64,000 nt of DNA from Acanthamoeba sp. SK_2022b. Lineage: Eukaryota > Discosea > Longamoebia > Acanthamoebidae. Under the pieces are notes generated by a model, which worked only from the letters and a program-made list of their open reading frames with translations, did no database searches and was not told the origin of the DNA. Below, one piece after another: positions 47,604 through 51,133 of this stretch. Every line of letters starts with the position of its first letter. The stretch's first letter is position 1. The stretch spans positions 248,001 to 312,000 of the forward strand of contig JANDJZ010000008.1 in the NCBI GenBank assembly GCA_027943245.1, written 5' to 3'. The position numbers were made by a program, and so were the translations under genes.

Positions 47604-49167
47604 ATGTCGGAACAGGAGCAACCCCAGCAGCCGATGGATACGGAGACGACCGCCATCCCTACTACTCCGGCCTCTCCGATGCTAACGGAGACCACACCTG
47701 CGAACGGGGAGGGCGAAGCGGCCAACGAAGGAGAGCAGCAGCCGGCGCAACAGGAGGAAGCAAAGCAGGAGGTACTGGTGCTGGGTCTGGACTATGGCAC
47801 CCAGAAGTGCGTGCTGGCAGTGACCAGGAGTGCAGAGATGTTCCCGGCGATCGTTCAGAACAATCTCGCCAATCAAGTCACCCCGTACCGCTCTGCCCCA
47901 TCCATGAATGAATTCGTGGTTCTTCCCCTCATCTGCTGAGACAACGTTTTCGATTAACCCTTGCCATTTTGATTTTGGGCAGCAACGTGATTTCGTTCCG
48001 TGAGCGAAGAAGGCTTATTGGCGAGGAGGCTGCCGGTGCGGTACGGCGTCACTCTCTGGCCTATTTCTTGTTGTGCTGTGCCGTGAGGAGAACTCGGGTT
48101 GAGCTTACCACGGTGGTTGTCGCCGTTGTGCGCAGATGGCACGGGCACCCAACGCCGCACTGCACTCAGTGAAGCGATTCTTGGGGCAGTCGTTGGAAGA
48201 AGCTCAGAAGGAGCTGAACATGCTGCCCTTCGAGGTGGAAGAGAAGGACGGCAAGGTGTACTTCAAGGTATATCTAGGTTCCTCCAATGCGGGGAAGATC
48301 ACATCCCTCGTCAACTTTATGACTCATCATAGCTCGTCGCAGGTGCCCTTCCAGGACGAGGAGGCCACCTTCAGCCCCGAGGAAGTGGCGTCGATGATGA
48401 TCAAGACCTTCCGCTCCTATATCGAGTCCAACTTCGCCGCCAATGCCACCGAGATCACCAAGGGCTGCGTCGTGGCAGTACGTCAATGCACCCCGCGCTC
48501 CTCCCTCACTGGCTGCTCACCACGCGCCCCACACTCTCCAACAGGTGCCATCGAGCTTCAACGCGCAGCAGAGGCGGGCGATCGCTGATGCCGCCACCAT
48601 CGCTGGCCTGCCGGTCCTGCAGATCATCGACGAGGCGACCGCAGGTACAACGTCGATCATTACTATTGAAGCGTTGTAGTCTGCCACCCGACCCGTCATG
48701 AGGGCTCATTCGGCGTTTTTTCTCCAGTCGCTCTGTGCTACGGCCTCAAGCGGCGCGATGCCCGCAGGGAGGCGATTTTGAAGGCGCGGAGGGCGGCCGG
48801 GGCCAAGGACAACACCGCGGCAGCTGCTGCAGAGGAGGAGAAGGCCCAGGAGGACGCCGGCGACACCGTCCTGTTTGTCGACATGGGCCACTCCTACTTG
48901 AACGTCCTCGTTGCCAGCTACGGTAGGAGCAAGATGACCGTACGCTCCTACCCTCTTCGCGCTGGCATCAGAGGTGTGTGCTGTGTTTCTTATCCTCCTG
49001 CTTGCAGGTGTTGGCTTCGCTCTGCGATGCGTCGGCCGGCGCGCGCGAGTTCGATTACAGTCTGGCCCGCCACTTTGCAGAGGAGATCCAGGTACGGCAG
49101 CGCTCATGTATCACACGCAGGCGTGGGTCATCGTACTGACTCCTTTTCCACGCGCCGGAACACCCTG

Positions 49168-49223
<56 letters not shown>

Positions 49224-51133
49224 ACAGAAAAAGTGTGACGTGGCCGTGCTCAAGAACAAGAGGCTACTTACCCGTCTCCTCCGGTCGTGCGAGAAGACTA
49301 AGCAGGTCCTCAGCACCATCGACGAGACCTTCTGCGAGGTCGAGAACCTAGCGGACGTCGACTTCCGGGGAAAGATCTCCAGGTGGAGCCCCCCTCTCTT
49401 GCACCCTTTCGTTGTTGACCATCGTCGGCGCCTGTTCTGACGTGGATTGTGGGGGGGGGGTCATCCACAGAGCCAAGTTTGAGGAGATCTCCAAGGAGGT
49501 GACGGACAAAATCGGACAGGCCATCAATGCTGTGCTCGAGAAGGCCGGCAAGAAGGCGGCCGATCTGAGTGCTGTGGAGATCGTCGGAGGCGGCACCCGC
49601 ATTCCTCTTGTCCAGACCGTGATCGCTAATGCCCTCGAGGGCCGGCAGCTCAACAGAACGCTCGACAGCGCTGGTTCCGTGGCCATCGGCTCAACGCTCA
49701 TGGTAAAGCACCAGCCCACCTCTCTTTGCAGCTCAGCTACCGCTTCATGACCAGCCACTGACGGTGTGCTTGTCCCGGCGTGGAACCAGGCTGCGATCTT
49801 GAGCCCCGAGATTGAGCTTGAGTACGAGGTGGAGAACGCGGCGTCGGCACCGACGGCGGAGGGCGGGCTCACGGCGGCGGACGTGACCAAGGCGCAGGAG
49901 AGGCAAAAGCAGATGGAAGAGACCGAGCAGCGAATCGTCGACACCGAGAACAAGCGCAACGAGATCGAGCAGTTTATTTATCACATGCGCGAGAAGGCCG
50001 ACGACAAGAGCCTCGCCAGTCATTTCTCCGGCAACGAAAAGCAGAGCTTGGTATGTAGAAGCGTTTGGTTGTTGTGTCATTTTTTTTGTTGCCAGACCTA
50101 ACGCAGGGCCACGCTTACCCTGTTTTTGCGTAATAGTTGGACCATTTCATCAGCACGCACAATTGGGTCGACGACAACAGCTTCGAGGTGACCAACGGCA
50201 ACCTGGAGCTGTTCGAAAAGAAGTTCGACGAGCTAAAGGAGTCAGTCAAGACTCTAGCCCCCGGCTTCCATGCTCGTCTCGAGCAGCTTAAGGAGGAGCA
50301 GGAGCAGGCCAACAGGAAGGCCGCCGAGGAGGCCGCCAACTTCGTCCCGGAGAAGAGGGTATCCAATTGCTTCGTCTTCGTTTCCACCTCGCTCGTTCTG
50401 TCGACTTGTAGCGCGCCACTCGCACATCTGCCGCGTGTTGCTGATGTTATCTTCCTCTTTCTTTCATCTCTGATCATCACAGGAGAAGGTGCCGCGCACC
50501 AAGAAGCAGAAGATCCAGGAGGCGGGCAAGAAGAGGAACCAGGGTAACATCGTCTTCAAGGAGTTCGACTACGAGAATGCCGCCAAGCTATACCTGGAGG
50601 TACACGGCACACAACGCCCCCCTCGTCTAGCCACAGTTGACGTCCCGCCTGCGCAATGTTTGCTTACGCTGTGGCGGTGGTAATAAACAGGCGCTGGGCT
50701 ACCTGGCCGATCTGTATGACCTGAGTCCCGAAGAGCAGGAGGAGGTGAATGCCCTCAAGGTGCCGTGCCACCTCAACATTGCTCTGTGCTGTACCAAGAT
50801 CAACAGATACCCTCAGGCCGTCGAGAACTGCAACAAGGTCGGTGTCTTATCCTCTTTCCTATCCGCTCATGTCACAGCGTCATTGACCACGGCCTCACCG
50901 GTGACCGCGAGCAGGCCCTGGAGATCGAGAAGAATAACGTGAAGGCGCTCTTCCGGCGTGCCCAGTGCTACGTGCAGCTGTCGAAGCTCGAGGACGCCCG
51001 GAAGGACCTCGATGCGGCCCTACAGGCCGAGCCCAACAACGCCGCCGTCAAGAAGGAGCTCGCGCTCGTGGACAGGAAGATCACTGCCCAAAAGGAGAAG
51101 GAGAAGAAGATGTACTCCAAGATGTTCTCCTAA
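47604..51133 (+). CDS. Hsp110-type chaperone lacking SBD-beta, fused to a TPR domain
   Basis: Hsp110-family nucleotide-binding domain joined to a carboxylate-clamp TPR. The ATG at 47604 starts an acidic Gln-rich region, then VLGLDYGTQKCVLAVTRSA. NBD motifs: NAALHSVKRFLGQS, LQIIDEATA, VLFVDMGHSYLNVLV (the DMGHS of Hsp110) and VEIVGGGTRIPLVQ. After AAILSPEIELEYEVEN the beta sandwich is absent; the lid helices start at once (TENKRNEIEQFIYHMREK, then DHFISTHNWVDDNSFE). An in-phase intron (about 50360-50483) leads to the TPR: KKRNQGNIVFKEFDYENAA, CHLNIALC, KALFRRAQCYVQLSKLED, ending KMYSKMFS at 51133. K/N, N and K/R clamp positions for an EEVD tail are present. The role is inferred as a nucleotide exchange factor docking on Hsp70 or Hsp90. 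No signal peptide or ER tail is seen, so it is cytosolic. Confidence 0.85.
49168..49222 (+). repeat. (AAC)n microsatellite at an Hsp110-TPR 3' splice site
   Basis: About 18 AAC units ending in CAAACAG. That AG is the acceptor for the exon that begins with the codons for KKCDVAVLK. Confidence 0.9.

Follow-up and report, generated by a model that had tools for sequence, protein, structure and literature searches.

The gene at positions 47604-51133 of the window, by which we mean the whole 64,000-nucleotide (nt) stretch of Acanthamoeba sp. SK_2022b DNA analysed here (contig JANDJZ010000008.1, positions 248,001 to 312,000), encodes a 784-residue protein in which an Hsp110-type nucleotide-binding domain (NBD) is followed almost directly by the alpha-helical lid (SBD-alpha) and then by a C-terminal tetratricopeptide repeat (TPR) domain of the FKBP type. 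The protein lacks the beta substrate-binding domain (SBD-beta) and there is no space for one. The same order, NBD-lid-TPR, defines a conserved family found across distant eukaryotes. Domain order, loss of SBD-beta, Hsp110 descent, conserved contact residues, the FKBP52-type TPR and the occurrence of EEVD-ending partners in the genome were all obtained by computation. We favour, with a probability of roughly 0.6, the reading that the protein is an Hsp110-derived nucleotide exchange factor without SBD-beta, tethered to Hsp90 and/or Hsp70 by its C-terminal TPR.

Domain organisation and the missing SBD-beta

In the splice model, 13 GT-AG introns (67-136 nt) separate 14 exons over a span of 3530 nt, leaving a single frame of 784 codons plus stop. 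The parts relevant to the domain organisation, with the basis of each assignment, are:

47604-51133, + strand: whole gene, 784-residue protein (splice model, 14 exons)
47604-47777, + strand: N-terminal tail, residues 1-58 (splice model)
47778-49804, + strand: Hsp110-type NBD, residues 59-468, exons 1-10 (Pfam HSP70, NBD trees, Sse1 profile match)
49703-49789, + strand: intron 9, 87 nt, close to the NBD end (splice model)
49805-49873, + strand: linker of 23 residues where SBD-beta would be (NBD-lid gap)
49874-50331, + strand: alpha-helical lid (SBD-alpha), residues 492-615, exons 10 and 11 (lid profile, Sse1 alignment, orthologue model)
50501-51130, + strand: FKBP-type clamp TPR with long helix 7, residues 631-784, exons 12-14 (FKBP52 match, Pfam TPR_1/TPR_2)

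The best stretch for Pfam HSP70 covered residues 59-472, corresponding to positions 1-380 of the 599 in the profile, while TPR_1 and TPR_2 scored above cut-off with best stretches at 689-720 and 722-754. A profile built from 31 family members was compared with structures in the Protein Data Bank, and its best match was yeast Sse1 (E 1.3e-121). The alignment to Sse1 (3d2e_A) fell into two pieces, one at chain residues 4-399 and one at 508-667, which adjoin at profile positions 398/399; the piece that the family profile passes over (chain residues 400-507) is SBD-beta.

The structure models are those of the proteins of two relatives. The AlphaFold2 model of the 91% identical orthologue has a mean predicted local distance difference test score (pLDDT) of 86.3, falling below 50 for residues 1-44, and a predicted template modelling score (pTM) of 0.68; it shows the NBD, then one four-residue strand (474-477) and only helix and coil from residue 491 to the C-terminus. 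In the model of the Phytophthora ramorum relative (mean pLDDT 88.8) no strand of at least three residues lies beyond residue 360. SBD-beta is absent from both models, as it is from the window protein with its NBD-lid gap of 23 residues. The structural match lists of both models are taken up by Hsp70-type chains and say little about the TPR, which is assigned on sequence.

The gene model agrees with its relatives. An Acanthamoeba castellanii strain Neff protein of 783 residues is 91% identical over its full length, and in the alignment with three close orthologues (P0001, P0002, P0003) gaps are confined to the N-terminal tail, one residue near 193 (in P0003 only) and one linker residue within 469-491. 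At no exon junction, those of introns 49703-49789 and 50359-50482 included, was a gap found in this alignment. Within the assembly itself, all matches at least 77% identical to the orthologue sit at the window locus, the other matches listed being at most 47% identical.

An earlier note on this DNA, made from its letters alone, had described an Hsp110-like NBD, a lid beginning about 20 residues after it with SBD-beta missing, and an in-phase join of lid and TPR. The NBD is confirmed by the Pfam match and the trees described below. The missing domain is borne out by the gap of 23, the two-piece match to Sse1, gaps of at most 80 in 131 relatives and the orthologue model, a structure prediction of the kind that the note had proposed as a check. 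The join is upheld by the one open frame, the gapless junction at intron 50359-50482 and the full-length relatives. A missed beta-sandwich exon, which according to the note would be a refutation if found between 49700 and 49790, was rejected because intron 49703-49789 is, at 87 nt, too short to hold one, and the relatives lack such a domain.

Spread and descent of the family

The family was assembled from 243 matches listed in three overlapping searches (120 of 583, 120 of 182 and 13 of 13) together with the window protein. Among these 244 proteins, 238 matched the NBD profile, 164 the lid profile and 137 the TPR profile; 131 matched all three. Since the family's own members supplied the profiles, relatives whose lid differs strongly could escape them. 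In the 131, the NBD-lid gap has a median of 19 residues (range -3 to 80) and reaches at least 60 in six; the NBD is near-complete in 91, and in the three relatives that combine a near-complete NBD with a gap of at least 60 the gap sequence appears to be of low complexity. Proteins with NBD and lid and no TPR have a gap of at least 126 in 32 of 33 cases. The exception, P0007 (643 residues), falls in the family NBD clade with a gap of 23 and stands outside the 131; its transcript may be truncated, or the TPR may really have been lost.

Each search scored about 8000 candidates, and the spread given here is that of the groups met among them. By source name, members come from Acanthamoeba and Balamuthia, from oomycetes (Phytophthora, Peronospora, Bremia, Pythium, Saprolegnia, Aphanomyces and others), from other stramenopiles (Ectocarpus, Laminaria, Tribonema, Ochromonadaceae) and from the haptophytes Prymnesium and Scyphosphaera apsteinii. 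The domain order, which the note had suggested looking for in other amoebozoan genomes, thus occurs there and beyond Amoebozoa, and a novelty restricted to amoebae was rejected on the grounds that stramenopiles and haptophytes share it. The idea that two genes had been run together was likewise rejected by the full-length relatives. Several relatives carry transcriptome names, and P0002, P0003 and P0004 (85, 77 and 53% identical) have frames of 779-793 residues on longest contigs of 2410, 2558 and 2520 nt, which are probably spliced transcripts. Set against the 3530-nt gene, contigs of this length suggest that lid and TPR are joined in the relatives' spliced RNA.

NBD sequences place the family in common descent with Hsp110. 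The family forms one clade (99/98) in a carefully built tree of 34 NBDs, 19 of them its own, and joins Hsp110 with support of 100/100, apart from Hsp70, BiP and DnaK; a quick tree with 46 rows, of which 24 were from the family, gave 99 for the family and 100 for family plus Hsp110. Four tree rows were of unusual composition. The eight Hsp110 rows are not a single clade, and for that reason the family could have originated within Hsp110, with weak support of 81/92 in the 34-row tree. Of the 107 relatives that have a residue at the histidine position of the DMGH phosphate motif, 85 carry H. An origin from Hsp70 rather than Hsp110 is disfavoured by profile and trees, despite single-sequence phmmer searches in which Hsp105, BiP and Hsp70 ranked nearly equal. 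NCBIfam models found on three relatives were of Hsp70 type and TPR among others, all below their own cut-offs.

Residues for possible contact with Hsp70 and Hsp90

Three groups of residues bear on possible partners:

49958-49969, + strand: Asn520 and Glu523, equivalent to Sse1 N572 and E575 (alignment mapping)
50534-50956, + strand: clamp positions Arg642, Asn646, Asn692, Lys722 and Arg726 (tallies over 131 relatives, codons checked)
51107-51130, + strand: helix 7 tip KMYSKMFS, aligned to KLYANMF of FKBP52 with L410, Y411, M414 and F415 (alignment)

In the mapping of the lid pair, Asn and Glu lie at chain positions 574/577 of 3c7n_A, whose numbering runs two ahead of 3d2e_A at the start of the NBD. 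The equivalents of N572 and E575 are Asn and Glu in 131 of 131 family members. In Sse1, the double mutation N572Y E575A left 20% of wild-type Hsp70 binding and 5% of wild-type exchange (PMC11479587).

The best Protein Data Bank match of the TPR domain was the TPR of FKBP52 (FKBP4), with E 1.3e-28 over query residues 6-157 of 158. The five clamp positions (Lys/Arg, Asn, Asn, Lys, Arg), which we take to be those numbered K8, N12, N43, K73 and R77 in Hop, are all filled in the window protein. The clamp-type TPR recognised in the earlier note therefore stands, by its residues and by its FKBP52 match; the first position, read there as Lys, is Arg642, and among the 131 relatives it is Lys in 125, Arg in four and a gap in two. 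Positions L410, Y411, M414 and F415 of FKBP52 are occupied by M, Y, M and F, and 119 of 131 relatives have a loose form of the helix 7 motif among their final 15 residues. In FKBP52 these four residues sit in the cleft of the closed Hsp90 C-terminal domain (PMC10716051), and a helix 7 of this kind points to closed Hsp90 as a partner.

Possible partners are encoded in the same genome, namely Hsp70s ending in KIEEVD and an Hsp90 ending in RMEEVD. The assembly also holds long single-frame DnaK- and HtpG-like genes (L001, L004, L005, L006, L022), which suggest bacterial contigs, from a symbiont or from contamination. The start of an Hsp110-like NBD is cut by the contig end at 26003 (L026, G000 C816:23500-26003); the remainder of this gene was not found in the assembly, so that the presence of a complete canonical Hsp110 cannot be stated. 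A further relative of Hsp70 (L029, G000 C443:55500-60500), which has a DMGHS motif as well as an exon for a lid, is perhaps Grp170-like, a name given by resemblance.

At the locus itself, one other feature lies within the gene:

49168-49225, + strand: (AAC)n microsatellite, non-coding, in intron 7 (49092-49227; read from the sequence)

One frame of this repeat reads poly-Asn. A search of 47401-47603 for a heat-shock element (GAAnnTTC or TTCnnGAA) found none. The upstream neighbour (window 46450-46689) contains a MORN repeat (Pfam E 1.6e-6) and the downstream neighbour (window 52075-52314) encodes a FAD_binding_4 domain (Pfam E 4.9e-11).

Proposed function and comparison with known systems

From these features we infer that the protein promotes exchange, binds Hsp70 and Hsp90 and has a role in client hand-over. 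According to this model, the lid would pack against the NBD as in Sse1 and offer the Asn/Glu pair to the NBD of Hsp70, from which ADP would then exit, so that the client is let go. The TPR clamp would hold a C-terminal EEVD and helix 7 would sit in the groove of the closed Hsp90 dimer; exchange would thereby be placed at the hand-over of clients from Hsp70 to Hsp90.

Several observations weigh against this reading. All seven reference rows, which include Hsp70 and BiP, carry the Asn/Glu pair as well, so that it is not specific to exchange factors; moreover, the lid profile used to pick the 131 itself contains the pair. The A280/N281 contact of Sse1 is T364/I365 in the window protein, and in the family T or Q with mostly I or L. 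Since the five Hsp110 reference rows also vary here, this is a weak criterion that carries little weight either way; the Sse1-2,3 variant alters A280/N281 together with N572/E575 (PMC5440654). The ATPase lysine is K in seven of 131 rows (34 gapped), all seven in the Acanthamoeba-Balamuthia branch, the E175 equivalent is E in six of 131 (28 gaps), and the T204 equivalent is Tyr in the window protein. In vitro reports conflict on the need of Sse1 for ATP hydrolysis (PMC5440654). In the TPR, the second clamp position is Thr rather than Asn in 47 of 131, and the M414 position of helix 7 is Ala in 91 of 119. Relatives outside the Acanthamoeba-Balamuthia branch, P0008 among them, have mostly lost the ATPase lysine and E175 and have kept the residues of lid and TPR.

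That ATPase residues are gone from most relatives and that the A280/N281 contact is lost would also suit a pseudo-Hsp110 scaffold, in which NBD and lid bind Hsp70, p23 or another protein without exchange and the TPR reaches Hsp90, the whole acting as an adaptor between Hsp70 and Hsp90. For a similar protein of Toxoplasma gondii, DnaK-TPR (TGME49_202020), PMC5693876 cites a reported interaction with p23. We regard the scaffold as rather unlikely, because all 131 members retain the Asn/Glu pair even though, of the three domains, the lid varies most in nine of ten relatives compared (in the tenth it equals the NBD), and because the hydrolysis-defective Sse1 K69M supports disaggregation in vivo (PMC5440654), so that loss of ATPase need not equal loss of function.

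A further reading is an ATP-dependent chaperone that still handles clients itself, with its lid, disordered tail or TPR groove in place of SBD-beta; an ATP-dependent chaperone has been proposed for TGME49_202020 (PMC12254245). A Drosophila Hsp110 without SBD-beta is stably expressed, suppresses aggregation and is an active holdase, an activity tied to its C-terminal disordered extension (PMC8063735), and the Acanthamoeba-Balamuthia branch retains the ATPase lysine. For the present family such a function is improbable: the NBD-lid gap is short in 131 of 131, the ATPase residues are mostly lost outside that branch, and in the models the lid runs into the TPR, with no long extension of the metazoan Hsp110 kind. 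That the gene is an artefact, in which neighbouring genes were joined or a beta-domain exon was missed or lost from the assembly, can be given hardly any credence, as 131 proteins share the order, including named genomes and transcriptome-named entries, and the frames of P0002, P0003 and P0004 lie on contigs of at most 2558 nt that are probably spliced transcripts. The overall interpretation given in the earlier note, a protein that both docks on and recharges Hsp70/Hsp90, is partly supported.

The biological roles of the Hsp110 substrate domain have been termed undefined (PMC8063735). A natural family that lacks SBD-beta and has NBD and lid would mean that the NBD-lid half of Hsp110 can persist through long evolutionary times with no client site, and the added TPR makes the tethering of Hsp70 nucleotide exchange to Hsp90 directly testable. 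We suggest, tentatively and with less than even odds, that the family is an old class of eukaryotic exchange factors missing from the usual list, an Hsp110 minus its client site plus an FKBP-type TPR by which Hsp70 would be recharged on the closed Hsp90 dimer, common to Amoebozoa, stramenopiles, haptophytes and perhaps, as DnaK-TPR, Apicomplexa. If true, release from Hsp70 would be coupled to Hsp90 closure within one chain.

With Hsp110 proteins (yeast Sse1/Sse2, metazoan HSPH) the family of the window protein shares the NBD clade, the DMGH motif and the lid with its Asn/Glu pair; it differs in lacking SBD-beta, in not keeping A280/N281 and in the added TPR. With Hsp90 co-chaperones of the FKBP51/FKBP52 type the protein shares the TPR, the clamp residues and helix 7 (KKMYSKMF versus KKLYANMF), but it has no FK506-binding domains and its N-terminal part is an Hsp110 NBD with lid. 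Hip (ST13), Hop and CHIP are TPR co-chaperones that act on Hsp70 and, unlike the window protein, have no Hsp70-type NBD or lid.

A literature search for the NBD-lid-TPR order, in which few subscription journals were covered, showed Toxoplasma DnaK-TPR (also BSM) as the sole related architecture among the papers listed. This published protein of 763 residues has an Hsp70 domain followed by a TPR near its end, so that NBD plus TPR alone is not new, and the earlier statement that no chaperone with this order had been described was too strong. Its Hsp70 part was matched to E. coli DnaK, and an Hsp110 origin or loss of SBD-beta is not described in the available parts of the sources. Kinship with the window protein's family is a conjecture, the two being compared by description only; the family may nevertheless offer a framework for DnaK-TPR, a published bradyzoite marker. 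Because p23 binds closed Hsp90, an interaction of DnaK-TPR with p23 would fit such a framework. This interaction is reported, with Ueno 2011 as the source, in papers in which knock-out of DnaK-TPR left growth in culture unaffected and the predicted TPR aligns partly with FKBP38 (PMC5693876, PMC12254245).
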